The notes beneath the pieces are model-generated. The model was not told the DNA's origin and did not search any database. It was given only the letters and a program-made list of their open reading frames with translations. From a bacterium (GTDB lineage: Bacteria; Vulcanimicrobiota; Vulcanimicrobiia; Vulcanimicrobiales; SCRA01), in the NCBI GenBank assembly GCA_004297985.1, contig SCRA01000064.1, positions 1-39,792 on the forward strand: a DNA stretch of 39,792 nt, in the 5' to 3' direction. Of the stretch, positions 14,470 through 27,883 are shown one piece after another (position 1 is the first letter of the stretch; every line of letters begins with the position of its first letter). The position numbers were made by a program, and so were the translations under genes.

Positions 14470-17400
14470 AGCTTCAACCTCGCGAACAGCGTCCACTGGC
14501 TGCTGGGCCCGCTGGGCAGCGTGAGGTAGGGCGACGGCGGATAGGAGGTGACGGCGCCGGGCAGGTAGGCGCTGGGGTTCGCTCCCGAGCCGGGACCGAA
14601 GGCGCCGAAGCCGTTATTGATATAGCCTGGGTTGACGTACGGGTAGTTTGCGACGTTCTGAAAGAGATTTTGCACGTGGAGGCCCAGCGTCAGTCGATTG
14701 GAGACGTCTTTGGAGATCACCAGGTTCGTGAAGAGGATGGCGTGCGTCAGCGCGCCGTTGAGCGCCTGCGTGCAGCCGCCCCCCGGCGAGCCCACGATGT
14801 TCGGCTGGGTGGCTGAGCCTGCGTCTTGCGGATCGGCGTAGTAGCAGAACGAGCCGCCGAAGTTTCCGTAGAGGTTGGTATTGGGCACGTACACGGGTTG
14901 ACCGTTGATCAGGACGGGGCTTGCGCTCCACGTGCCGACCGGATAGCCGTGGTTATAGACGAAGATCGGGTTCACGCGCCAGCCTTTGCGGCGGTACTCC
15001 AGGCTCAGCGTGGCGGTGAGTGGTGAGAGATACTGCGGGTGGACGACCGCTCCCGACGCTAAGAGAGCGGGGGCGACGGAGGGGCGGAAGCCTGTGCTGG
15101 AGAGGTAGTTGACGAATTGATTGATGTACGTAGCGTTGAACTGCGCCGAGAGACCGTGCGCCGCTTGGCGTGAGAGTGCGAGCTCGATGCCGGTGGTCTC
15201 GCCCTTGCCGTCATTGGTGACGCTCGTCGTGCCGGGGATGGGTGCCCCGGCCGGTGAGATCGTGACCTGCTGACTATTGACGATCACGCTGTAGTCGCGG
15301 CGGTGGTAGAGTGTGAGCTTGAGCGAGACATCGCGCGGCAGCTCACGTTCCAGCGAGAGGTCGTAGCTGTCGGACTGCTGAGCCTTGGGGAACGAATAGG
15401 GGTCGATGCCGTAGTTCTGCCACCACGCGTTGGCGAGCTCGTCGGCATAGTTCTTGCACGGCGCGCTGAAGTTGGCGGCCGTGCCGCCGCAGATCGGCAT
15501 GGTCGCAGGCAGGCTCTGGAACGCAGCCGGCGGGTCGTAGATGGTCTCGATCTGGAAGAGCGGCGCGAAGATCGTGGCATGGCCGTAGCCGCCGCGCAGC
15601 ACGGTGGCGCGCGTGTGGCCCAGCGTCAGCGAGGCGAAGAGCCGCGGCTGCAGCCCGTTCGACTCGTAGGTGCCGGCGCCGGTTGGGACGCGCTCCATGT
15701 CGTAGCGTAGGCCGGGCTGAATCATCAGCCGATCCGATGGCATCCAGGCGTCGTCGACGTAGAGGGACGTGCGGTAGAGCGGGTCCTTGATGATCTCATG
15801 GAGCGCCGGATAGCGCTGACCGGCGAACGGTCCAGGGGCGCCGCCCGCCAGCGGATCGGAGGGCAGGAAATCCGTGATGGTGGGACCCGCGAAGAAGAGC
15901 GAGGGCGAAGGCAGGTAGCCGTTGAGCGACGCGCGCGAGAAACGGTAGTCGAAGCCGAACGAGAGCTGGTGGCGCAGGCTCAGCGCCTGTTCGACGTCGG
16001 CGGCGAGGCCGGTGTTCTGCGTGGAGCGCGTGACGTAGAAGTCGCTGAATCCCAGCGTTGGAAAGCCGTAGCCGAAGAGCGGATCGTTGGGGTCGACGGC
16101 GGCGTCGACAACCCAGTTCTGCGTGCGATAGACACGCGCGTTGAGATAGCCGCGTCGGCCAAGCGGGCGGGAGAAGCCGATCTTCGAGAGCTCGTACTGC
16201 GAGATCTCATAGTCGCCCGTGCCTACCGTGGCGTCGACCGAGGGTTGCCCCGGGTAGAACGGCATCAATGCCTGCGCCTGCGCGGGCGTGAGCGGAGCGG
16301 CGCCGCCGAAGAAGAGCGGGGCGTTGGCGTAGACGCCGACGTACGGTGCGCTCGCCGAGGCATAGGGAAAGGTCGCCGCGTCGACACCGTAGTCGCCGTA
16401 GAGATGGTTCGCTCCCCAGTTGTTCCAGAGTTGCAGCGTGTTCTCGAGGTGCCGTCCGAATCGGTAGTCGATGTTGGCGAGCGTGTCGTTGGTGACCACG
16501 AACGCCACTTGGCCGATGCTGTCGGGATTCGCGGCGTGCGCCGGCCCCCAGGTGTTGCCGAACGGCGGGGCGCAGCAGCCGCCGAAGTCACGATCGTAGC
16601 GCCCGCTGACGAAGAACGAGAGGCGGTTGTCCGGCGTGCTGTCCCCGTATTCGAACTTCAGGCCGTGCTGGAAGGCGAAACCACCGTCGTCGATCTGGAG
16701 ATATCCGCTGGCGGGATAGGTTCCGGTCTTGGTGACGATGTTGACGGAGCCCGAACCGGATCCGCCTTTGCTGGCGCCGCCGGGTCCCGCCGTCACGTTG
16801 ACGGTGCGTGCACCGTTGATGATGAGGTTATTGATGAAGAGGTTGGAGAGCGGCTCGGCGGCATCGATGCCGTCGAGCTCGAAGCCTTGGTCGTTCTCGA
16901 GGCCCCCTCGAATGAGCGGGAAGGAGCCGAGCAGTCCGTTCCCGCTGCCGCCGACTCCGCTGACGCCGGGAAGCGCGTTGAGCAGTGCCGCCTCGTTTTC
17001 GCTGGCCGGAAGACCGGTGAGCTGCTCTTGCTGTGCAACGCCGAGAGAGTAGACGTCCGACGGCTGGTAAGGCTGGACGAGCGAAGACGGGGCGCGTGCC
17101 GTGACGCGTTCGATGACGCGCAGCGCCCGCGTGAGCGGGACGTTCACGATGAGCGCAGAGTCCTGCGTGATGACCAGGTTCGTCTCAGAGAAGGCTCGAT
17201 AGCCTTCGCGCGTCGCTGAGAGCGTGTAGACGTCCGGCTGGATCCCTTCGATGACGTAGAGGCCTTTGGCATCTGTGCCGGCGCGGTAGATGCCCGAAGA
17301 CGCCATCAGCGTGATCTCCACGCCTTGGATGGGGGCGTTGTCGGCTGCGTCGACGATGACGCCGCGCAGCGAGCCGACGGTGACGGCCGCGGCGGGAAGC

Positions 17401-17483
17401 GCAGCGATCATCAGCGCGGCGGCGAGGAACGCACCGAGGAGGCGCTGCGTGCCCCGAGGATCTGGCCAGGGCAAAGGTCCCAT
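14466..17483 (-). CDS. TonB-dependent outer-membrane receptor with carboxypeptidase-regulatory-like N-domain
   Basis: A 1005-residue outer-membrane receptor. Residues 1-34 are a signal peptide. Residues 38-120 form a CarboxypepD_reg-like beta-sandwich (GSLRGVIVDAADNAPIQGVE). A plug domain follows with LIRGGLENDQGFELDGIDAA and the motif GSGSGSVNIVTKTGTYPASG. The remaining 750 residues are an Oar-like beta-barrel. GAAGGGA-type glycine turns and the terminal segment SSQWTLFARLKL fit the barrel end. A GAAGGGA ribosome binding site precedes the ATG. The ligand is unknown. The downstream lipoprotein is translationally coupled. Oar-like receptors in other bacteria transport peptides, proteins or polysaccharides, which does not settle the substrate here. 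Confidence 0.9.
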   Translation of the reverse strand: MGPLPWPDPRGTQRLLGAFLAAALMIAALPAAAVTVGSLRGVIVDAADNAPIQGVEITLMASSGIYRAGTDAKGLYVIEGIQPDVYTLSATREGYRAFSETNLVITQDSALIVNVPLTRALRVIERVTARAPSSLVQPYQPSDVYSLGVAQQEQLTGLPASENEAALLNALPGVSGVGGSGNGLLGSFPLIRGGLENDQGFELDGIDAAEPLSNLFINNLIINGARTVNVTAGPGGASKGGSGSGSVNIVTKTGTYPASGYLQIDDGGFAFQHGLKFEYGDSTPDNRLSFFVSGRYDRDFGGCCAPPFGNTWGPAHAANPDSIGQVAFVVTNDTLANIDYRFGRHLENTLQLWNNWGANHLYGDYGVDAATFPYASASAPYVGVYANAPLFFGGAAPLTPAQAQALMPFYPGQPSVDATVGTGDYEISQYELSKIGFSRPLGRRGYLNARVYRTQNWVVDAAVDPNDPLFGYGFPTLGFSDFYVTRSTQNTGLAADVEQALSLRHQLSFGFDYRFSRASLNGYLPSPSLFFAGPTITDFLPSDPLAGGAPGPFAGQRYPALHEIIKDPLYRTSLYVDDAWMPSDRLMIQPGLRYDMERVPTGAGTYESNGLQPRLFASLTLGHTRATVLRGGYGHATIFAPLFQIETIYDPPAAFQSLPATMPICGGTAANFSAPCKNYADELANAWWQNYGIDPYSFPKAQQSDSYDLSLERELPRDVSLKLTLYHRRDYSVIVNSQQVTISPAGAPIPGTTSVTNDGKGETTGIELALSRQAAHGLSAQFNATYINQFVNYLSSTGFRPSVAPALLASGAVVHPQYLSPLTATLSLEYRRKGWRVNPIFVYNHGYPVGTWSASPVLINGQPVYVPNTNLYGNFGGSFCYYADPQDAGSATQPNIVGSPGGGCTQALNGALTHAILFTNLVISKDVSNRLTLGLHVQNLFQNVANYPYVNPGYINNGFGAFGPGSGANPSAYLPGAVTSYPPSPYLTLPSGPSSQWTLFARLKL

Positions 17484-17604
17484 AGCAATCCCTTCGTGGC
17501 GGATGGACGCCTGCAGAGAGACGACGGCAAAGGCCTCTTATCGTAGTCTTCCCACGTACGACCCCTCGCTCACACGGCGGCTCGCCCGAAAGTCTTGGCA
17601 GGTA

Positions 17605-17700
17605 ATCATGCGGGTTGCAACCCGCGTTGCTGAGTGCGGAGGCCACCGCCTGGCTCCGAGGCGCTTCTCTGGCGGTGCGGAGGGATGCTGTGGAACGGGG
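17605..17700 (+). promoter_or_regulatory. Structured leader before the tungstate/molybdate transporter
   Basis: The 232-base gap between the divergent TonB receptor and wtpA-like gene holds several GC-rich inverted repeats. GCGGGTTGCAACCCGC (17610-17625) is a perfect 16-base palindrome. CGGAG(G)CCA at 17637-17645 pairs with TGGCTCCG at 17651-17658. CACCGCC (17644-17650) pairs equally well with GGCGGTG (17671-17677). The last two stems share bases and exclude each other, as in attenuators and riboswitches. A molybdenum/tungsten-cofactor riboswitch is possible given the downstream gene, but I could not match its consensus. The sequence 17484-17600 carries the TonB-gene ribosome binding site and no clear promoter. 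Confidence 0.4.
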
Positions 17701-17715
17701 CTAAACTTCGTTGCC

Positions 17716-18702
17716 ATGCATCTGACGAGACAGGCTGCCATTGCCGCGTTGACGGCTGCGGGCGTGGGTGCCTCCCGGGCGTTGTTCATGCCCGGGGCGG
17801 CGCAGGCGGCGACGGGCGACCACCTCACCGTCTTCGCGGCGGGAACGTTGGCCGCGCCCCTGCGCGCTCTGGATGAGCGGTTTGAGCGCCTGTATCCCCA
17901 GACGATCGTCCAGCCGCAGTTCGGCGGCAGCGTCAAGATGGTGAAGCAAATCTCCGATTTGCACGAGATTGCCGACGTGGTCGCCGTGGCCGACTACCGG
18001 GTGATCCCGAAGTATCTCTTCGGGAGTGCCGGACGGCAGGCGTATGCGGATTGGTACGTCGGCTTCGCGAGCAATGCCGTCACGCTCATCTACACGCAGC
18101 GCAGCAAGTATGCCGACCGTATCACGCCGGAGAACTGGTACGATCTCTTAGCCCAGCCGGGCGTGGCGATAGGCCGCTCGAACCCCGATACCGATCCCTC
18201 CGGATACCAGTTCCTGCTGATGCTCGAGCTGGCGGCGCTCCACTACCGGCTCCCCGGTCTGAGCGATCGTATTCTCGCCAACGCGCCGCTGGCCAACGTC
18301 CGTGACACCGAGACGGAGTTGATTCCCGCTCTGCAGTCTGGACAGATCGACTACCTGGCGATCTACCGCTCGACGGCGCTGGAGCAAGGCTTCGAGTACC
18401 TGCGCCTGCCGCCGCAGATCGATCTCGGTAACGCCCGTTACGCCTCGCTCTACCGGCGGGCGTCGGTGACGACGAAGAACGGCACGCTTACCGGGGCGCC
18501 TATCGTCTACGCCGCCACCGTGCCGGCCAACGCGCTGCACGTCGCGAGCGCGCGCTCGTACCTCGCGCTGCTCCTAGGGCCGGAGGGCACGGAGGTGGTG
18601 AGGCGCGCCGGGCTCGAGCCGATCACGCCCGCCTTTGCCTGGGCGCCAGACCGTGTCCCCGTGGCGTTGCGCAGCCTGACCAGGCCATGGCCCGGCGTAT
18701 AG
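17716..18702 (+). CDS. Tungstate/molybdate-type ABC transporter substrate-binding protein
   Basis: A 328-residue exported binding protein. The N-terminus carries a signal peptide (cleavage near GAAQAATG). The mature start LTVFAAGTLAAPLRALDERF matches the ModA/WtpA family of tungstate and molybdate receptors. IGRSNPDTDPSGYQFLLMLE is the WtpA-like anion-binding segment. The ATG at 17716 follows a weak ribosome binding region; the frame is open upstream but without signal-peptide character. It overlaps the permease by 16 bases. Which oxyanion is bound cannot be told; WtpA-type proteins prefer tungstate. Confidence 0.85.
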   Translation: MHLTRQAAIAALTAAGVGASRALFMPGAAQAATGDHLTVFAAGTLAAPLRALDERFERLYPQTIVQPQFGGSVKMVKQISDLHEIADVVAVADYRVIPKYLFGSAGRQAYADWYVGFASNAVTLIYTQRSKYADRITPENWYDLLAQPGVAIGRSNPDTDPSGYQFLLMLELAALHYRLPGLSDRILANAPLANVRDTETELIPALQSGQIDYLAIYRSTALEQGFEYLRLPPQIDLGNARYASLYRRASVTTKNGTLTGAPIVYAATVPANALHVASARSYLALLLGPEGTEVVRRAGLEPITPAFAWAPDRVPVALRSLTRPWPGV

Positions 18703-19487
18703 GGAGCGCTCCACGCACCCTCACCATCGCCTTCTCGGCCATAGGAGGCGTGGCGCTGCTGTTCATCGTTCTCCCCCTCGTTCAGCTCTACGCGCTGCAG
18801 AGCCCCTCCGGTATCGTCCGTGCTGCAGGCGACGGGTCCGTGCGTGCCTCGATCGCGCTGAGCGTCGAGGCGGCTCTGGCGACGGCACTGCTCGCCGGAG
18901 CCGCCGGAGTCCCCTTGGGCTATCTTCTGGCGCGCCATCCCTTTCGTGGAAGAAGCTTGGTAGAGGGAATCGTCGACGTGCCGCTGGCCGTTCCGCATAC
19001 CGTCGTCGGCATTGCATTGCTGTTGGTCTTTGGGCGTACCGGAATCGTTGGTGCTCCGGTGGAGGCGTGGACGGGTCTGCGCTTTTGGGGCACGGCCGCG
19101 GGCGTGATCGTCGCCATGCTCTACGTAAGCATGCCGTATGCCGTCGATACGTCACGTCAGGCGTTCGCCGCGATCGATTCGGAGCTGGAGTCGGTCTCGC
19201 GGACGCTTGGCGCAGGACCGTGGCGCACCTTTGCGCGCGTCACGCTCCCGCTGTGCTGGCGCAGCATCGTTGCCGGGATGACGATGTCCGGCGCGCGCGC
19301 GCTGAGTGAGTTCGGCGCGATCGTGATCTTGGCATACTACCCGATGACCGCACCGGTCAAGATCTACGACCTCTTTCTCCAAGGCGGCTTGAACGACTCA
19401 GCGGCCGCCGCGGTGCTCTTTCTCAGCGTTGCACTCGTCATGTTTGTCGTGCTGAGGCTTCTAACCAACCGGCGCGAGGCGTTGTAG
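18687..19487 (+). CDS. Tungstate/molybdate-type ABC transporter permease
   Basis: A 266-residue inner-membrane permease with six hydrophobic segments. The ATPase-docking EAA loop is visible as SELESVSRTLGAGPWRTFARVTLP (conserved A-G-A pattern), and GARALSEFGAIVIL is typical of ModB/WtpB. The start at 18687 lies within the binding-protein gene. No ATPase (ModC/WtpC) follows: the next gene is an unrelated dioxygenase. The importer is therefore incomplete here and must borrow an ATPase encoded elsewhere, or the operon has lost it. Confidence 0.88.
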   Translation: MARRIGSAPRTLTIAFSAIGGVALLFIVLPLVQLYALQSPSGIVRAAGDGSVRASIALSVEAALATALLAGAAGVPLGYLLARHPFRGRSLVEGIVDVPLAVPHTVVGIALLLVFGRTGIVGAPVEAWTGLRFWGTAAGVIVAMLYVSMPYAVDTSRQAFAAIDSELESVSRTLGAGPWRTFARVTLPLCWRSIVAGMTMSGARALSEFGAIVILAYYPMTAPVKIYDLFLQGGLNDSAAAAVLFLSVALVMFVVLRLLTNRREAL

Positions 19488-20431: not shown

Positions 20432-21055
20432 ATGTACACCCGGGATCCGATCTTCTGGCGTGCCGGCGCAGCAAGTTCCTTGATCGTCATGGTGGCGATC
20501 TTGATCGCGTTGACGATCAACACCATCGGCGTCATCAGCGTCGGCGGCGCGAACGTTCCGCCATACACCGTCATCAATCAAGCCATCGGATATGTCGATG
20601 ACGACTCCCAACACGAGTACGTGCCGACGATCAGTGGAAGCGATCCGCTCTTCGGGCACGTGTACGACGAGCGGCAGGCCACGGCGCTGATCCACGAAGG
20701 CAAGCTCGTCATCCAGAGTCGTGCGTGTCTCGAGTGCCATAGCGTCTTCGGTACGGGTGCCTACTTCGCGCCAGACCTCACCAAGTCGTGGCTCGATCCC
20801 GTCTGGCGGCAGATGTGGGAGCCCATGACGCAGACGCACACGCGTGCGGACGCGATGGTGGCTTTCCTGATGCATCCCGACAAATACCCCACGTGGACGA
20901 GGGAGATGCCCAATCTCCACTTGACGCGCGACGAGGCCCAGGCCGTGGTGGCCTATCTGAAGTGGACCTCGTCGATCAACACCAACGGCTTCCCATTCGG
21001 CTTTCAAGCCGACCCCGACACCCCCAACGGCAAGCAGGCCGCCGTCAACCGGTAG
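20432..21055 (+). CDS. norC: Nitric oxide reductase subunit C (membrane-anchored cytochrome c)
   Basis: A 207-residue subunit that feeds electrons to NorB. Residues 10-32 form one N-terminal membrane anchor. The heme c site is C99-x2-C102-H103 (CLECHSVFGTGAYFAPDLT, a NorC hallmark), and M159 in REMPNLHLT is the likely axial ligand. GHVYDERQATALIHEGK is also typical. It is the first of eight closely packed plus-strand genes that continue through norB to hemG. NO reductase converts 2 NO to N2O at the outer face of the inner membrane. No denitrification genes other than norCB are present, so detoxification and respiration are both possible. Confidence 0.93.
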   Translation: MYTRDPIFWRAGAASSLIVMVAILIALTINTIGVISVGGANVPPYTVINQAIGYVDDDSQHEYVPTISGSDPLFGHVYDERQATALIHEGKLVIQSRACLECHSVFGTGAYFAPDLTKSWLDPVWRQMWEPMTQTHTRADAMVAFLMHPDKYPTWTREMPNLHLTRDEAQAVVAYLKWTSSINTNGFPFGFQADPDTPNGKQAAVNR

Positions 21056-21094
21056 CCGCGCCGTAGCACTCGTGCAATCTCAGGAGATGTCAGC

Positions 21095-22528
21095 GTGACA
21101 AGTGTGCGGAGTCTCTACTCGTCCCAGAAGCTTGCGTTGCGCTACTTCACCCTCTCGGTGGCGCTCTTCGGCGTGATGATCGTCTTCGGTCTCGTGGCGG
21201 CGACGCAGTACATCCACCCGAGCTTCCTCTTCCCGGCTCTGGCGTTCAACATGGTCAAGACCATGCACGTCGACGTGCTGATCCTCTGGCTGTTGACGGC
21301 ATTCTTCGGCTCGCTGTTCTGGCTCTTGCCTTCGGAGTTCAAGCGCGACCTCGTGGGCATGCGCGCCGCCAACGTCGTCTTCTGGCTGTTCTGCGCCACG
21401 ATCGCCGCGGTGGCGCTGACGTTCCTCTTCGTGCAGACCGGTCCGGGAACGGACAAGACGCTCTGGCTCATCAACCAAGGGCGCAAGTACGTCGAAGAGC
21501 CGCGCTGGGCGGCCGTCGTCGTGGCCATCGGCATCGCTGTCTTCGTCTACAACATCATCGGGACGGCCGTCGCCGCCAAGCGCGTCACCGGGATCACCGC
21601 GGTGATCATCCTCAACATGATCCCGCTCTTCGGACTGTACATGATCGCCTTTCCGGCCATGACCAACATGGCGCTCGATCAGTTCTGGTGGTGGTGGCTG
21701 GTGCACTTCTGGGTGGAGGCCACGTGGGAAGTCTTGATCGGCGCCATCGTGGCCCTGGTGCTGATGAGAGTCATGAACGCTTCGCGCAGCGTGGTGGAGA
21801 CCTGGCTCTACATCGAGGTCGCCTTGGTGCTGGCTACCGGCGTACTGGGCATCGGCCACCACTACTTTTGGATGGGCGCACCCAAGTACTGGCTGGGCAT
21901 CGGCGGGTTCTTCTCGGCGCTCGAGCCGCTGCCGCTCTTGGGTATGGTGATCCACGCCGTCTACGATGCCGGCGAGCACAAGATGAAGATGACCAACCAG
22001 CCCGCCTTCTACTGGACGATGCTCGAGGCATTCGGCAACTTCATCGGCGCCGGCGTCTGGGGCTTCATGATCACCCTGCCGCAGATCAACCTCTTCGCGC
22101 ACGGCACGCAGTGGACGGCCTCACATGGCCATCTCGCCTTCTGGGGCGCCTACGGCTGCGGCGTGATCTCGGTGATCTACCTGGCCGTTCAAGAGGCCGG
22201 AGGGCACGAGCAGATCGGCGGGCGGGCCTGGAAGTGGGCCTTCGGACTCCTCAACACCGGCATGTACGGCATGGGGGGCTCCCTCTTGATCGCCGGTATG
22301 GCGCAGGCATTCTACGAGCGAGCCATTGGAGGATCGACCTTCAACGCGTACGTGGCGGCGCAGCAGACGCCGTGGTTCCTCGAGGGCATCTGGATGCGCT
22401 GGGTGTTCGGCTTGATATTCACCGCCGGCTACGCCGTCCTCGCTGGCAACTTGATCGCCATCGCGCGGCGCAGCCGCGTGCCCGTCGCCGCCGGAACGCT
22501 GGCGGTCGAAGGCGCCGGGACTCGGTAG
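21095..22528 (+). CDS. norB: Nitric oxide reductase subunit B
   Basis: A 477-residue, about 12-helix heme-copper-superfamily subunit that reduces NO to N2O. Heme b ligands are H58 (MHVDVLILW) and H346 with H344 for heme b3 (SHGHLAFWG). FeB ligands are H204, H255 and H256 (HFWVEATWEV and GIGHHYFW), plus the NOR-specific E208; E277 in SALEPLPLL is also conserved. There is no fused quinol-oxidase domain, so this is a cNOR type working with NorC. The start is GTG at 21095 with AGGAG about nine bases upstream. Maturation genes norQ and norD are absent from the window. Confidence 0.95.
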   Translation: MTSVRSLYSSQKLALRYFTLSVALFGVMIVFGLVAATQYIHPSFLFPALAFNMVKTMHVDVLILWLLTAFFGSLFWLLPSEFKRDLVGMRAANVVFWLFCATIAAVALTFLFVQTGPGTDKTLWLINQGRKYVEEPRWAAVVVAIGIAVFVYNIIGTAVAAKRVTGITAVIILNMIPLFGLYMIAFPAMTNMALDQFWWWWLVHFWVEATWEVLIGAIVALVLMRVMNASRSVVETWLYIEVALVLATGVLGIGHHYFWMGAPKYWLGIGGFFSALEPLPLLGMVIHAVYDAGEHKMKMTNQPAFYWTMLEAFGNFIGAGVWGFMITLPQINLFAHGTQWTASHGHLAFWGAYGCGVISVIYLAVQEAGGHEQIGGRAWKWAFGLLNTGMYGMGGSLLIAGMAQAFYERAIGGSTFNAYVAAQQTPWFLEGIWMRWVFGLIFTAGYAVLAGNLIAIARRSRVPVAAGTLAVEGAGTR

Positions 22529-22537
22529 GGGCGAAGC

Positions 22538-22837
22538 ATGACCCCCATGGGATTCGTCGCCGATGCGATAGGACTGGGGTTGTTCGCTCTTCTCGGGGGG
22601 GCGTACGGGCTGCTCTACGCCGTCTCCGAGCTGCGCGCCGATTGCCGCTTCGCCCGCCTCGCGCTGGCGAGCTATGCCGCGCAGAGTGCCATCCTGCTCT
22701 CGGTCCTAGCGTTCTCGGCGCTAGGACCCATCTGGAAGGTGTTCTTGCTCGTCAGCGGTATCGCGTACTACTTTATCCCACGCGTGACGCTTCGCTACTT
22801 GAAGAACCTGCACGCATCCGGAGAGATACATTCATGA
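22538..22837 (+). CDS. Small membrane protein in the nor-heme operon
   Basis: A 99-residue protein with an estimated two to three hydrophobic segments (about 8-30, 43-60 and 65-80) and a basic C-terminal tail. I do not recognise the family. It starts nine bases after norB and overlaps the next gene by ATGA, so it belongs to the operon. Possible roles are a NorF-like accessory, a cytochrome or heme insertion helper, or a quinol-related subunit; nothing in the sequence decides. Confidence 0.7.
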   Translation: MTPMGFVADAIGLGLFALLGGAYGLLYAVSELRADCRFARLALASYAAQSAILLSVLAFSALGPIWKVFLLVSGIAYYFIPRVTLRYLKNLHASGEIHS

Positions 22838-23220
22838 TCGCCAACGGGATCAACGTCATCCTCGGCATCTCGCTCGTCTACGTGGCCGTCCTGGACACGC
22901 CGCTCTTCGCGGGGCCGTCCTGGCGTGGGATCGCCGCGCTGGCGGCGCTCTGCTTCGTTGCTTTCGCGTTCACCGCGAGGCGTAGCGACTACGCGCCCTG
23001 GCACGCCATCCTGACGAGCTGGCTGGGTGCTCTCCTGGTCGCGGCCGTGGGGCTCTCGTTCATACCTGCGTGGCCCGTGGCGGCGTCGACTTGGATCTGC
23101 TTCTGGGCGGGCCTGCTGACGGCATTTCTCGCGCTGTGGGCGGCGCTCTACCGTCGTTCGGCGGCGCGCTACCGCGAGCAGCTCGCCGGCAATGGAGCCG
23201 CAGCGACGGAGTCGACGTAG
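22834..23220 (+). CDS. Four-helix membrane protein in the nor-heme operon
   Basis: A 128-residue protein with about four hydrophobic segments. It has a tryptophan-rich SDYAPWHAILTSWLGALLVA segment and a matching second W-x-CFWAGLLTAFLALWAA segment, suggesting a duplicated two-helix unit loosely like SPW-repeat proteins. The ATG overlaps the preceding stop (ATGA) and the stop shares one base with the GTG of hemE (TAGTG). The function is unknown. Its position between norB and hemE suggests a part in assembling the NO reductase or handling its heme, which is inference. Confidence 0.72.
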   Translation: MIANGINVILGISLVYVAVLDTPLFAGPSWRGIAALAALCFVAFAFTARRSDYAPWHAILTSWLGALLVAAVGLSFIPAWPVAASTWICFWAGLLTAFLALWAALYRRSAARYREQLAGNGAAATEST

Positions 23221-24296
23221 TGACACGTTCCGCGCAGTCGCAGCGGCCCGAAGCATCGCTTCCCCCCGCAGCCGAGCATCCATTCCTCCTCGCGTGCCGG
23301 CGCGAGGAGTCGCCGTTTACGCCCGTCTGGCTGATGCGCCAGGCCGGGCGTTATCTTCCCGAGTACCGCCGTGTGCGCGAGCGTCTCTCCTTTCTCGAGT
23401 TGTGCGGCCGCTCCGATCTGGCGGCCGAGGTCACGGTGACGGCGGCGGAGCGTTTAGGCGTCGACGCGGCGATCATCTTCGCCGACATTCTGCTTCCGCT
23501 GGTACCGATGGGCGTCGGGCTGCGCTACGAGAAGGGCGACGGACCGCGCATCGAGCAGCCGATTCGCATGGCCGCCGACGTCGATCGGCTGACGCCCGTG
23601 AGCGTCGAGGAGTCCCTTGCATTCGTAGCCGAGACGGTTCGCCTCTCGCGGGCTGGATTGAATGGGAAGGTTCCGCTGATCGGCTTCGCGGGGGCGCCGT
23701 TCACGGTGGCCTCGTATCTGATCGAGGGCGGATCCTCGCGCATGCACGTGACCACGAAAGTCTTGATGCAGCGCGATGCGCTGACCTGGCAGCGTCTGAT
23801 GGAGCGGATCGTCGACGTAACAGCCGACTACCTCAACATGCAGATCGCGGCGGGGGTCGACGCGGTCCAGCTCTTCGACAGTTGGGTAGGATGCCTCTCG
23901 CCGCGAGACTACCAGCGTCACGTCCTGCCGTACACGAAGCGGCTGATCTCGGCACTGCGCCCCGGGGTTCCGGTGATCCACTTCGGGACGATGACGGGGA
24001 GCCTGCTCGAATTGATGCGGGACGCCGGCGGAGATGTCGTCGGTCTGGATTGGCGCGTGGAGATCGACGAGGCGTGGCAACGCCTCGGGCCGGAAGTTGG
24101 CGTCCAGGGCAACCTCGATCCCGCGCTGCTCTTCGCCGACGCGGCGGAGATCCGCAGAGCCGTCCGCGAGATGTTGGCGCGCGCCGGCAGCCGTCCCGGC
24201 TACATCGCTAATCTTGGCCACGGCGTCTTACCGGAGACGCCCGTCGACAACGTGCTGGCTTTCGTCGATGCGGTGCATGAGTACGGCCGCCGGTGA
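23220..24296 (+). CDS. hemE: Uroporphyrinogen decarboxylase
   Basis: A 358-residue enzyme that decarboxylates four acetate arms of uroporphyrinogen III to give coproporphyrinogen III. FTPVWLMRQAGRYLPEYR is the N-terminal signature, with the invariant Arg and Asp-binding loop. GFAGAPFTVASYLIEGG, DAVQLFDSWVG and GNLDPALLFA are further family motifs. The start is GTG at 23220, overlapping the previous stop by one base; the frame is open upstream but reads through the neighbour. Length is normal. Confidence 0.95.
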   Translation: MTRSAQSQRPEASLPPAAEHPFLLACRREESPFTPVWLMRQAGRYLPEYRRVRERLSFLELCGRSDLAAEVTVTAAERLGVDAAIIFADILLPLVPMGVGLRYEKGDGPRIEQPIRMAADVDRLTPVSVEESLAFVAETVRLSRAGLNGKVPLIGFAGAPFTVASYLIEGGSSRMHVTTKVLMQRDALTWQRLMERIVDVTADYLNMQIAAGVDAVQLFDSWVGCLSPRDYQRHVLPYTKRLISALRPGVPVIHFGTMTGSLLELMRDAGGDVVGLDWRVEIDEAWQRLGPEVGVQGNLDPALLFADAAEIRRAVREMLARAGSRPGYIANLGHGVLPETPVDNVLAFVDAVHEYGRR

Positions 24297-24306
24297 GGAC
24301 CGTCCC

Positions 24307-25284
24307 ATGACGCACGCCACGCCGTTCGATGCCGTCGTCTTGATCGGCTTCGGCGGGCCGACGAGCCCAGAGGAGATTCGCCCCTTCCTGGATCGCGTGC
24401 TCGAAGGACGCCCCGTGCCCCGCGCGCGCTACGAGGACGTCGTCCGCCACTACGAGCGTATCGGTGGGCGCTCGCCGTTCAACGAGCTCACCCAGCGGCA
24501 GGCCGATGCGCTTGCCGGCGTCCTGCGCATCGAAGGCGTCGAGATTCCCGTACGGGTAGGGCTGCGCCACGCCGCGCCGTTCATCGAAGAGACGCTGCGC
24601 GATCTCGCCGCAGAAGGCGCGCGCCATCTCCTTGGCATCGTTTTGGCTGCGCACGAGAGTGAGGCCAGTTGGGAGCGCTACGTCGAGAGCGCGGAGGAGG
24701 CCAGACGGCGCATCGGTGCCGGCGCCCCCACGATGACCTACGCGCACCCGTCGTTCGATCACCCGCTGCTGGTGCGTGCGCATGCCCAGCGCGTGCGCGA
24801 GGCGCACGAGCGCATGCGGCGCGACACCTTCGCGGGTATGACCCTCATCTTCACGGCGCACAGCATCCCGCAGGCGATGGCCGATCGCGGGCCGTACGTT
24901 CGCGAGCTGGTGGGCACCGCTGCCCTGGTGGCTGAGGCGGTAGGCGCGCCGGACTGGCATCTGGCTTACCAAAGCCGCAGCGGCTCGCCCAGCGAGCGGT
25001 GGCTGGAGCCGGACGTCTGCCAAGTCTTGAGGCGTTTGCCGTCCGGCTCGGGGAGGCGCGAGGCCGTCGTCGCGCCGATCGGCTTCGTCTGCGATCATGT
25101 CGAGGTGCTCTACGATCTCGACGTCGAAGCGGCAGAGGTCGCCGCGACAGCGGGCGTACGCATGGAGCGCGCCCGCGCGCTCAACGACCACCCCGACTTC
25201 GTGGCGGTCTTAGCAGAACTCGTCACCGGCCGGCCGAAGGACGCCGGCGGTGCACACGATTCCATGGAGAGCCTATCTCGATGA
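24307..25284 (+). CDS. hemH: Ferrochelatase (coproporphyrin or protoporphyrin)
   Basis: A 325-residue cytoplasmic enzyme inserting Fe2+ into a porphyrin. The N-terminus VVLIGFGGPTSPEEIRPFL and the metal-binding H185 in IFTAHSIP are characteristic. AYQSRSGSPSERWLEPDV and PIGFVCDHVEVLYDLD, with the conserved Glu, also fit. It starts 10 bases after hemE and overlaps the radical SAM gene by ATGA. Whether it acts on coproporphyrin III or protoporphyrin IX is not certain. The absence of HemF, HemN or ChdC nearby and the AhbD-like neighbour make the coproporphyrin route plausible. Confidence 0.92.
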   Translation: MTHATPFDAVVLIGFGGPTSPEEIRPFLDRVLEGRPVPRARYEDVVRHYERIGGRSPFNELTQRQADALAGVLRIEGVEIPVRVGLRHAAPFIEETLRDLAAEGARHLLGIVLAAHESEASWERYVESAEEARRRIGAGAPTMTYAHPSFDHPLLVRAHAQRVREAHERMRRDTFAGMTLIFTAHSIPQAMADRGPYVRELVGTAALVAEAVGAPDWHLAYQSRSGSPSERWLEPDVCQVLRRLPSGSGRREAVVAPIGFVCDHVEVLYDLDVEAAEVAATAGVRMERARALNDHPDFVAVLAELVTGRPKDAGGAHDSMESLSR

Positions 25285-26444
25285 CTACCACGGCGGGCGC
25301 CGCCCCGCGAGAGATCCCCGAAGTCCGCCACCCTCGTCACGACGTAGGCGAGCGACCGTTCATCATCATCTGGGAGGTCACGCGCGCCTGCGACTTGGCG
25401 TGCCGCCACTGCCGCGCCGACGCGATTCCCCACCGCAACCCGCTGGAGCTCACGACGCCCGAGGCACGCGCGCTGATCGACGAGATCGCGGAATTCGGAA
25501 AGCCCTCGCCGATCTTCGTGCTGACCGGCGGCGATCCCATGAAGCGCAACGACATCGCGAAGCTGGTGGAGTACGGCACGTCGAAGGGCGTGCACATGGC
25601 GCTCTCGCCGTCGGCAACGCCGCTGGTCACCAGGGAACGCCTCGCGGAGCTCCACGACCTCGGCCTCAAGGCGCTCTCGCTCAGCATCGACGGCTCGACG
25701 CCCGAGATCCACGACCACTTCCGCGGCTTCTCCGGCGTCTTCGACCGCACGATCAAGCTGTGGGAGATCGCGCGCGAGATCGGTCTGCGGGTGCAGATCA
25801 ATACCACCGTGACGCGCCATAACGTCGAAGATCTGGCGGCGGTCGCGCAGCACCTGCGCAGCCATAGCGCGGCGCTGTGGAGCGTCTTCTTCCTGGTGCC
25901 AGTCGGGCGCGGGAGCGTGCTCGAGCCGATCACCGCGCAGGAGTCCGAGGACGTGATGAACTTCCTCTACGACGTGGGAACGATCTTGCCGGTGAAGACG
26001 ACGGAGGGACACCACTTCAAGCGCATCGTGCTCCAGCGCGGCGAGCTGGCCCGTCGCAAGGGGGCGTTGGCGTTGCCGGAGGCGGGACCGCTCTATCATC
26101 GTTTGCGCGCCGGGCTGGGAGAGTGGACGCCGGGGCCGCGCGAGCGGCGCAGCCCGATGGATGTCAACGCCGGCCGTGGCTTCGTCTTCATCTCGCACAA
26201 GGGCGAGATCTGTCCCAGCGGCTTCATGCCGATGAGCGCCGGCAACGTGCGCACCGATTCGCTGCGCACGGTCTACCGCGAAAGCGATCTCTTCGTCGGC
26301 CTGCGCGATCCCTCGCGCTTGAAGGGGCGTTGCGGACGCTGCGAGTTCGCCGCCGTCTGCGGCGGGTCACGCTCTCGTGCCTACGCGGTCACCGGTGACC
26401 CCTACGCGGAAGATCCGCTCTGTGCCTACGAGCCGCCGCAATGA
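25281..26444 (+). CDS. Radical SAM/SPASM enzyme of the AhbD/NirJ/TIGR04053-like group, in the heme operon
   Basis: A 387-residue iron-sulfur enzyme. The radical SAM cluster motif is C37-x3-C41-x2-C44 (RACDLACRHC), followed by a GGDP motif. The C-terminal SPASM-like region has GEICPSG, CGRCEFAAVC and a final Cys in DPLCAYEPP. GGSRSRAYAVTGD closely resembles the AhbD ending GGCRARAYA, but with Ser for one Cys. AhbD removes two carboxylates from iron-coproporphyrin III to make heme. The gene overlaps hemH and hemG by ATGA on both sides, supporting a role in late heme synthesis. TIGR04053 family members of unknown role are the main alternative. Confidence 0.82.
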   Translation: MTTTAGAAPREIPEVRHPRHDVGERPFIIIWEVTRACDLACRHCRADAIPHRNPLELTTPEARALIDEIAEFGKPSPIFVLTGGDPMKRNDIAKLVEYGTSKGVHMALSPSATPLVTRERLAELHDLGLKALSLSIDGSTPEIHDHFRGFSGVFDRTIKLWEIAREIGLRVQINTTVTRHNVEDLAAVAQHLRSHSAALWSVFFLVPVGRGSVLEPITAQESEDVMNFLYDVGTILPVKTTEGHHFKRIVLQRGELARRKGALALPEAGPLYHRLRAGLGEWTPGPRERRSPMDVNAGRGFVFISHKGEICPSGFMPMSAGNVRTDSLRTVYRESDLFVGLRDPSRLKGRCGRCEFAAVCGGSRSRAYAVTGDPYAEDPLCAYEPPQ

Positions 26445-27883
26445 GCGCGCGCAGCGTCCAACGGGTAGCGGTCATCGGCGGCGGCATCAGCGGCCTGGCG
26501 GCGGCCTACCGGCTGCGCGAGCTGGCCGTTGAACAGAGTCTCCCCGTAGAAGTGACGGTGCTCGAGCGCGCGCCGCGTGCCGGCGGCTGCGTGGAAACCT
26601 TACAACGTGACGGCTTCACGATGGAGACGGGCGCCGAGACGCTGCTGGCCGATAAGCCGGCGATCGTGAGCGTGCTGCGGCGGTTGGGTCTGGAGCACGA
26701 GCTCGCTCCCACGCGCCCGGAGTTCAAGGGTTCGCGCGTTCTGCGCAACGGTCGCCTGGTCCCGCTTCCGCCCGGCGTCATGCTGTTCGCTCCCAGCAGG
26801 CCTGCCGCGCTGGTGACCAGCGGCCTCTTCAGCCTGCGGGGCCTGGCGCGGATGGCGATGGAGCCCTTCGTGCCGGTGCGCCGTTCCTCGGAGGACGAGA
26901 GCCTAGCCTCGTTCGTGACCCGGCGCCTGGGGCGCGAGGTCCTCGAGCGCCTCGCGCAGCCGCTGATCGGCGGCATCTACTCCGCCGACCCGCAGCGGCT
27001 CAGCATGCAGGCTGCGCTGCCGCGCTTCGTGGAGCTCGAGCAGCGGTACGGAAGCCTCGTACGTGCGTTGACGAGCTCTGACCAAGCCCACCGTTCCGCG
27101 ACCCTGACGAGCGTGCGCGGCGGGCTCGGCACGATCGTCGATCGTTTCGTGCACGAGCTCTCCGGACGCGTGATCTTGAATCAAGGCGTGCTGGCGCTGC
27201 AGCGCCATTGCGATTCCAGTGGGACGCGCAGTTGGGTGCTGTCGCTGGCCGACGGCTCGACGCTCACGGCCGACGCGGTGATTTGCGCAACGCCGCTGCA
27301 CGAGGGGGCGCGCCTGTTGCGTACGGTGCAGCCGCACCTCTCCGAGCTGCTCGGTTCGATCGCCTACAACTCGATCGCCACCATCAATCTGGCCTTCGAC
27401 GAAGCCGCTGCGCGGCGGCTGCCGCGCAGCTACGGCCTGGTGGTGCCCTTCGTGGAGGGGCGGCGCATCACCGCGCTGACGATCGTCAGCCAGAAGTATG
27501 CCGACCGGGCGCCCCAGGGCAGCGTCTTGCTGCGCGTCTTCATCGGGGGCGCGCTGCAGGCGAATCTGCTCGATTTCGACGACCAGACGCTGGTGCGCGC
27601 CGCGCGCGACGAGATTCGCGATCTGTTGGGCATCTCGGCCAACCCGCTGCTGACCACGGTCCGGCGCTGGCCGCATCGCTTGCCGGAGTACGCCCTCGGC
27701 CACCGCGAGCGCATCGCCCAGATCGAGCGCGAAGCGAGCGCTCTGCCGTGCTTCGCGCTGGCGGGAGCGGCGCTCCAGGGCGTCGGCGTTCCCGATTGCG
27801 TCCAGAGCGGTGAGCGTGCCGCGGACTCCATGCTCGCGGCGCTCTTCCCCGCCGGCTCGGACGTGCACGTCAAAGCTTCGTAG
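26441..27883 (+). CDS. hemY: Protoporphyrinogen/coproporphyrinogen oxidase (HemY/CgoX type)
   Basis: A 480-residue FAD-dependent oxidase. VAVIGGGISGLAAAYRL binds FAD, and GGCVETLQRDGFTMETGAET and LIGGIYSADPQRLSMQAA are HemY/HemG family signatures. The C-terminal GHRERIAQIE plus FALAGAALQGVGVPDCVQSG closes the FAD site. HemY proteins oxidise protoporphyrinogen IX, or coproporphyrinogen III in the coproporphyrin-dependent route. The ATG overlaps the radical SAM stop (ATGA). It ends the eight-gene nor-heme run and overlaps the convergent GNAT gene by 14 bases. Confidence 0.92.
   Translation: MSARSVQRVAVIGGGISGLAAAYRLRELAVEQSLPVEVTVLERAPRAGGCVETLQRDGFTMETGAETLLADKPAIVSVLRRLGLEHELAPTRPEFKGSRVLRNGRLVPLPPGVMLFAPSRPAALVTSGLFSLRGLARMAMEPFVPVRRSSEDESLASFVTRRLGREVLERLAQPLIGGIYSADPQRLSMQAALPRFVELEQRYGSLVRALTSSDQAHRSATLTSVRGGLGTIVDRFVHELSGRVILNQGVLALQRHCDSSGTRSWVLSLADGSTLTADAVICATPLHEGARLLRTVQPHLSELLGSIAYNSIATINLAFDEAAARRLPRSYGLVVPFVEGRRITALTIVSQKYADRAPQGSVLLRVFIGGALQANLLDFDDQTLVRAARDEIRDLLGISANPLLTTVRRWPHRLPEYALGHRERIAQIEREASALPCFALAGAALQGVGVPDCVQSGERAADSMLAALFPAGSDVHVKAS

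Follow-up and report, generated by a model that had tools for sequence, protein, structure and literature searches.

A TIGR04053-family radical SAM gene in a nor-hem operon: a predicted AhbD-like coproheme decarboxylase that accompanies ChdC

A radical SAM gene of family TIGR04053, lying between hemH and hemY in a Vulcanimicrobiales genome, probably encodes an AhbD-like coproheme decarboxylase with a single auxiliary cluster that works beside ChdC, and its operon with nitric oxide reductase genes suggests heme supply during low-oxygen nitrogen-oxide respiration; this reaction, its substrate and the circumstances in which the enzyme is used are predictions. Novelty is modest, because reviews already describe a coproporphyrin route that ends with AhbD in some organisms, or an ahbD gene that lies with hemY/hemH/hemQ (PMC7242693, PMC10548856). 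The hybrid idea is thus already in print; what is new is the operon and the mixing of pathways among relatives. According to a 2024 paper, Bacillaceae must possess an oxygen-independent partner of ChdC whose identity is unknown (PMC10965808), and TIGR04053 offers a concrete candidate for such a partner in bacteria more widely. If the assignment is correct, a family known only by its accession gains a function.

Gene order and operon context

The window, the whole 39,792-nucleotide stretch of contig SCRA01000064.1 analyzed here, encodes the radical SAM protein as a 387-residue open reading frame with its ATG at 25281 and its stop codon at 26442-26444 (Table 1). The earlier note had placed this gene between hemH and hemY, and both the reading frame and the family-model matches of its neighbors confirm the placement. 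The note had also described the order hemE-hemH-rSAM-hemY as having ATGA overlaps; these are present at both ends of the radical SAM gene (hemH end 25284, hemY start 26441), but hemE and hemH are separated by a 10-base gap (hemE end 24296, hemH start 24307). Upstream of hemE, on the same strand (20432-22528), lie norB and the gene for a norC-like protein, which scores 28.1 against NorB_cytochrome_c-like, slightly below the cut-off of 29. The open frame between norB and hemE (22522..23220) has no Pfam match over cut-off. The nor-hem arrangement is not a chance one, since G030, of the same genus, keeps the order norC-norB-hemE-hemH-TIGR04053-hemY and G029, also of this genus, keeps it up to the end of its contig. 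No match to an FNR-type box, with up to 2 mismatches allowed, stands out just upstream of norC, and at that stringency the whole window holds 8 matches against 4.0 expected. Genes for WtpA- and WtpB-like tungstate/molybdate transporter proteins are found at 17290-19484, upstream of the operon.

By their structural matches, HemH and HemY appear closest to coproporphyrin-type enzymes. The best PDB match of HemH is 28wn, named coproporphyrin III ferrochelatase (157 bits, vs about 94 bits or less for mitochondrial ferrochelatases), and that of HemY is 3i6d (283 bits; next 2ivd, 198), which we take to be of B. subtilis origin. HemY is described as oxygen-dependent (PMC10965808), so that without an alternative acceptor for HemY the pathway of this operon cannot run entirely without oxygen. 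The operon may therefore function in microoxic cells and not in anoxic ones, or HemY may have such an acceptor.

Table 1. Features of the nor-hem operon and cluster-related residues of the radical SAM protein (window coordinates)
Feature	Position	Strand	Evidence or conservation
norC-like cytochrome c subunit	20432..21055	+	PF00034 31.8 bits (cut-off 21.3)
norB, cNOR-type nitric oxide reductase subunit	21095..22528	+	closest PDB entry 3o0r, subunit B (294 bits)
open frame between norB and hemE, probably small membrane protein, start uncertain	22522..23220	+	no Pfam match over cut-off
hemE, uroporphyrinogen decarboxylase, start codon uncertain	23220..24296	+	TIGR01464 409 bits (cut-off 303)
hemH, ferrochelatase	24307..25284	+	TIGR00109 169 bits (cut-off 125)
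TIGR04053-family radical SAM, predicted oxygen-independent coproheme decarboxylase	25281..26444	+	TIGR04053 510.3 bits; TIGR04545 308.3; tree
radical SAM cluster motif CX3CX2C (C37, C41, C44)	25389..25412	+	102/102 aligned members
E242 at AuxI Cys position of full AhbD	26004..26006	+	E 95/102, A 7/102
S313 at AuxI Cys position of full AhbD	26217..26219	+	S 101/102
auxiliary (AuxII) motif CX2CX5CX20C (C351, C354, C360, C381)	26331..26423	+	102/102 aligned members
S363 at AuxI Cys position of full AhbD; the Ser of the earlier note	26367..26369	+	S 101/102, N 1/102
hemY, coproporphyrinogen/protoporphyrinogen oxidase	26441..27883	+	TIGR00562 291 bits (cut-off 98)

Family assignment and phylogeny

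The radical SAM protein is a member of the NCBIfam family TIGR04053, with 510.3 bits over residues 20-385 against a cut-off of 395. The next best model is AhbD (TIGR04545; 308.3 bits, under its cut-off of 500), with NirJ2 (189 bits), AhbC (173 bits) and NirJ (TIGR04051; 166 bits, vs a cut-off of 515, which places the protein outside NirJ) scoring lower. Its best-scoring families are tetrapyrrole enzymes, TIGR04347 excepted. Members occur in at least seven groups (Actinomycetota, Chloroflexota, Acidobacteriota, Bacillota, Deinococcota, Planctomycetota and haloarchaea), and no paper naming TIGR04053 was found in the literature searched. One member is encoded on NZ_CP029056.1 (2894 bases), which is labelled a Campylobacter jejuni plasmid and is possibly a stray contig.

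Phylogenetic analysis covered 58 rows: 42 of TIGR04053, one AhbD-type protein (L157), NirJ2, AhbC and NirJ, with no HemN row. All 42 TIGR04053 rows form one clade (100/99), whose sister is the AhbD-type L157 (97/89); NirJ2 branches next, with AhbC and NirJ outside. L157 itself scores 479.5 bits against the AhbD cut-off of 500 and is 37% identical to the window protein. Within the family, the window gene clusters with actinobacterial rows and a Bacillota-labelled MAG, with weak support, and the larger starred set around it also includes Chloroflexota and rows from elsewhere in its own phylum. The copies of its order-mates form a separate clade apart from it, which suggests transfer.

In keeping with an AhbD-like enzyme, the top Foldseek match to the structure model (pLDDT 92) is PqqE, a SPASM enzyme (PMC10452713). 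A different reading would be a SPASM-domain maturase of peptides (RiPPs): the nearest solved folds of the model include peptide maturases, and CGCGG rSAM-modified RiPP genes are annotated near TIGR04053 in two haloarchaeal loci (L064 5953-6252; L068 2842-3153). A maturase is nonetheless exceedingly improbable, given that the top-scoring families, TIGR04347 aside, are tetrapyrrole enzymes and that the neighbors, in the best 80 of 575 loci, are heme and nitrogen-oxide genes; at the window operon itself, no gene for a small peptide was noticed.

Cluster motifs and the serine

The AhbD-like character of the protein extends to its cluster-binding residues. It carries CX3CX2C and the C-terminal CX2CX5CX20-38C, the latter common to all AhbDs in a published comparison of 39 sequences (PMC10452713), and it shows the Glu/Ser variant of the AuxI site (E242, S313, S363), where the AhbD-type L157 has Cys at all three positions. 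The same source reports eight SPASM cysteines in the AhbDs of methanogens and sulfate reducers; the non-methanogenic archaeal AhbDs, in all but one of those compared, are without four of the SPASM cysteines, and Glu and Ser are conserved in place of three of them (PMC10452713). The earlier note had remarked that one SPASM Cys is replaced by Ser. That residue, S363, is real; Cys is replaced at two further positions as well, and the replacement is family-wide among the 102 aligned members. Since Glu/Ser is published for AhbDs of non-methanogenic archaea, it represents a known variant, for which one auxiliary cluster is expected. In M. barkeri AhbD, loss of AuxI almost abolishes the second decarboxylation (PMC10452713), so the single-cluster enzymes must manage this step without it.

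The protein shares with AhbD/heme b synthase (TIGR04545; Methanosarcina barkeri, Desulfovibrio vulgaris) the radical SAM and AuxII motifs and a SPASM-type C-terminus. However, it falls below the cut-off of that model and is without the three AuxI cysteines, and its gene sits with hemE, hemH and hemY rather than with ahbABC, in a genome with no AhbC-like match. The non-methanogen archaeal AhbDs, with the same Glu/Ser at three of the four AuxI positions, probably belong to the same family; these serve the siroheme route, whereas the window gene adjoins genes of the coproporphyrin route.

Heme genes in the rest of the genome

The earlier note proposed that an AhbD-type enzyme could finish heme from coproheme, and held that a genome without ChdC, HemN and HemF would support this. 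All three are indeed absent from the window, as the PF06778 matches of the genome (3.19 Mb, 96.4% complete) are on contigs C17 and C34, its HemN-like match is on C10 and HemF has none. Genome-wide, the absence of hemF and hemN also holds: HemF has no match anywhere, and no protein reaches the HemN model (TIGR00538, cut-off 325), the only match being that on C10 at 134.6 bits. This candidate was rejected as HemN, being HemW by TIGR00539 (278 bits). ChdC, in contrast, is present: the genome-wide search recovers it on C17 with 274 bits against the NF008913/PRK12276 cut-off of 253, and its alignment to coproheme decarboxylases of known structure extends across the NWY stretch, whose Tyr is presumably catalytic. 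By the refuting condition of the note itself, this result speaks against a replacement of ChdC. AhbC-like proteins have no match at E <= 1e-60, so the siroheme route is not indicated. With HemE, HemY, HemH and ChdC present and HemF and HemN absent, the genome is, on gene content, one with a full predicted coproporphyrin route ending in ChdC, plus the radical SAM enzyme. It thereby has the gene set of the standard coproporphyrin pathway (CgoX, CpfC, ChdC), from which it differs in having a second, radical last-step enzyme in the operon while chdC lies elsewhere.

A strict hybrid, in which the radical SAM enzyme is the sole coproheme decarboxylase of this genome and has replaced ChdC, would accommodate the window content, the missing HemF and the HemW identity of the HemN-like match, and the corresponding gene pattern does exist in three relatives (G145, G147 and G148, discussed below). 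It fails here because the C17 ChdC exceeds its curated cut-off, and is highly improbable. Contig C34 further encodes a 222-residue HemQ-type protein (L011 5036-5704; 182 bits vs the actinobacterial HemQ cut-off of 235) and a third ChdC-like copy (L011 12212-13074) that is split over two frames, either a pseudogene or an assembly error. What survives of the earlier proposal is the activity itself: a coproheme decarboxylase remains the best reading of the protein, from its clade, its Glu/Ser residues and the Haloferax volcanii work described below, while replacement of ChdC in this genome does not stand.

Proposed route

In the route that we propose, HemE would yield coproporphyrinogen III, HemY would oxidize it to coproporphyrin III, and HemH would convert this to coproheme by inserting iron. 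With SAM and a reduced [4Fe-4S] cluster, the radical SAM enzyme would then remove a beta-hydrogen from each of two propionates, in line with the hydrogen abstraction at the propionate beta position reported for AhbD (PMC11306076); CO2 would be released, leaving the vinyl groups of heme b, and the auxiliary cluster would take the electron away. ChdC, encoded elsewhere, would perform the same step with peroxide, and the radical enzyme would be active when ChdC is short of oxidant. Because the operon is shared with NO reductase, the radical enzyme may provide heme in low-oxygen nitrogen-oxide respiration.

Co-occurrence across the phylum

Across the phylum, TIGR04053 accompanies genes for making coproheme. 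Seven families were searched in 149 genomes, 48 of which carry TIGR04053 over cut-off; shortened or sub-cut-off matches in G014, G029, G068 and G090 were scored as absent. All AhbC matches fall below the curated cut-off of 650 and are called AhbC-like by score and tree, three scored examples being somewhat nearer the NirJ1 model. AhbC is found in 28 of the 48 carriers and HemH in 17 (both in 1, neither in 4), so that a coproheme source, AhbC or HemH, is present in 44/48 genomes with TIGR04053 vs 33/101 others. The four carriers with neither are G066, G079, G110 and G146 (completeness 90, 84, 84 and 72). The carriers are distributed over AhbC+ChdC (23/48), HemH+HemY+ChdC (11/48), ChdC alone (3/48), AhbC alone (3/48), HemH+HemY without ChdC, HemF or HemN (3/48; G145, G147, G148), HemH+HemY+HemF (2/48; G059, G088) and, with one genome each, AhbC+HemH+HemY+ChdC, AhbC+HemY+ChdC and HemY alone. 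Within the order of the window genome (99 genomes), AhbC is present in 27/35 with TIGR04053 vs 1/64 without. A tandem of TIGR04053 with an AhbC-like radical SAM gene, on one strand, recurs in many HemH-less members of the order (L056, L060, L063 and others).

ChdC occurs in 39/48 TIGR04053 genomes vs 60/101 others (p = 0.009, Fisher, kinship ignored), and within the order TIGR04053 does not track ChdC (30/35 vs 52/64; p = 0.78, Fisher, kinship ignored). ChdC and HemF never occur together in the 149 genomes, and the HemF carriers G059 and G088 are without ChdC. Another 49 genomes without TIGR04053 (e.g. G032-G043) have ChdC with HemH, HemY and AhbC undetected; an unrecognized ferrochelatase, uptake or assembly gaps are candidate explanations for their coproheme source.

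The strict hybrid route is plausible in G145, G147 and G148, as these fragmented genomes (completeness 96, 95 and 85) have HemH, HemY and TIGR04053, with no ChdC, HemF or over-cut-off HemN detected in the phylum profile searches. In G145 and G148, about 1.6 kb separates TIGR04053 from hemH; G146 (completeness 72) is additionally without HemH. The HemN check in this genus covered the best HemN-model match per genome, which is HemW in G147 and G148, and in G145 and G146 a HemN-superfamily protein below all cut-offs, so that the latter two may have HemN-like activity.

A broader proposal, which we consider as likely to be right as wrong, is that TIGR04053 is the oxygen-independent coproheme decarboxylase reported as missing from the bacterial coproporphyrin route, an exchangeable end module fed by HemY/HemH or by AhbC and linked to the respiration of nitrate, nitrite and NO, that replaced ChdC in the genus of G145-G148.

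Genomic neighborhoods of relatives

Neighborhood analysis used the best 80 of 575 relatives, taken from genome contigs with up to 9 kb of flank and less at contig ends. Streptomyces is over-represented in this set, and L077 is the same locus as L044; clustering of neighboring frames was noisy in high-GC loci, and named queries (phmmer) were used instead. In these best 80 of 575 loci, HemY is the most frequent heme neighbor (20/80 by phmmer, 22/80 by profile search; 14/80 within 500 bases), with HemH (5/80), HemE (4/80) and HemA (4/80) less common and ChdC never found (0/80). Nitrogen-oxide neighbors comprise NarG (16/80), NarI (15/80), NirK-like (10/80) and NorB (6/80), while NirS is absent from all 80. 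Either kind of gene is near TIGR04053 in 41/80 loci, and in 31 of the 48 loci that have 5 kb or more of sequence on each flank; for a 4-Mb genome, we estimate a chance of about 0.5% that one given gene lies no more than 9 kb from a randomly chosen site. PF06778 was found in 42 of 50 carriers sampled from the same best 80 of 575 loci. Multiple copies also occur (L047, L048, L049 and L062 set): G135 has three (C7, C36, C131), those on C7 and C36 adjoining hemY, and G056 has one flanking each side of a hemE-hemH-hemY cluster. In G059 (C44, L169) and G088 (C28, L168), TIGR04053 adjoins a second hemY or lies close to it, separately from the main hemF-hemH-hemY cluster.

Haloferax volcanii and the substrate

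Genetic evidence comes from H. volcanii, whose single ahbD, HVO_2144, is close to nirK and norB and to the gene of a blue copper protein (PMC5746218). Its deletion blocks anaerobic growth, and protoheme rescues DMSO-respiring growth (PMC5746218); denitrifying growth is only partly restored, with DMSO added, and pitA (ChdC) is required in air (PMC5746218, PMC8305020). TIGR04053 was detected at E <= 1e-90 in three control genomes, namely H. volcanii, Thermus composti and M. acetivorans. In two of the three the match exceeds the family cut-off, and the AhbD cut-off was exceeded in only 1 of 14 controls. Members from Haloferax larsenii (502 bits) and Thermus thermophilus (482 bits) indicate that the two over-cut-off controls are most likely H. 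volcanii and Thermus. From these counts and the gene order, HVO_2144 is most likely a TIGR04053 member, and H. volcanii appears to use it for anaerobic heme synthesis.

This bears on whether the enzyme could instead replace HemN, decarboxylating coproporphyrinogen III or metal-free coproporphyrin without oxygen ahead of HemY and HemH. The closeness of hemY in 14 of the best 80 of 575 loci and the second hemY of the HemF genomes G059 and G088 would suit such a step, and the pathway of G145, G147 and G148 could be completed by it just as well. However, 27/28 AhbC-bearing carriers are without HemH and 26/28 without HemY, which makes coproheme the likely substrate in those genomes; AhbD is the sister group of the family in the tree, which included no HemN row, and the H. 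volcanii phenotype fits coproheme (PMC5746218). We regard the HemN role as unlikely and retain coproheme as the predicted substrate.

Nitrogen-oxide loci and the Thermus NirJ

Beyond the phylum, haloarchaeal plasmids carry TIGR04053 near norB-like, nirK and halocyanin genes, and a Thermus plasmid carries it beside nirS; the Deinococcus ficus member has neither such neighborhood. The NirJ of Thermus nirSJM, described as making heme d (PMC7694296, PMC5748679), is a TIGR04053 protein (L065 7336-10595; 482 bits), and its naming as a heme d1 enzyme may be mistaken. Because a family member bears this name, a NirJ-type role in heme d1 synthesis has to be weighed for the window protein as well. We find it very unlikely: AhbD is nearer than NirJ by score (308 vs 166 bits) and by tree, NirS is beside none of the 80 contig loci (best 80 of 575), in one haloarchaeal locus the gene is near nirK, which is copper-based, and in relatives the gene adjoins coproheme genes. 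The Thermus and window proteins thus share an NCBIfam family, but the former is encoded beside NirS and the window operon is without it. If the decarboxylase assignment is correct, a new name may be called for in the case of the Thermus NirJ, and the synthesis of heme in denitrification becomes testable in culturable species.
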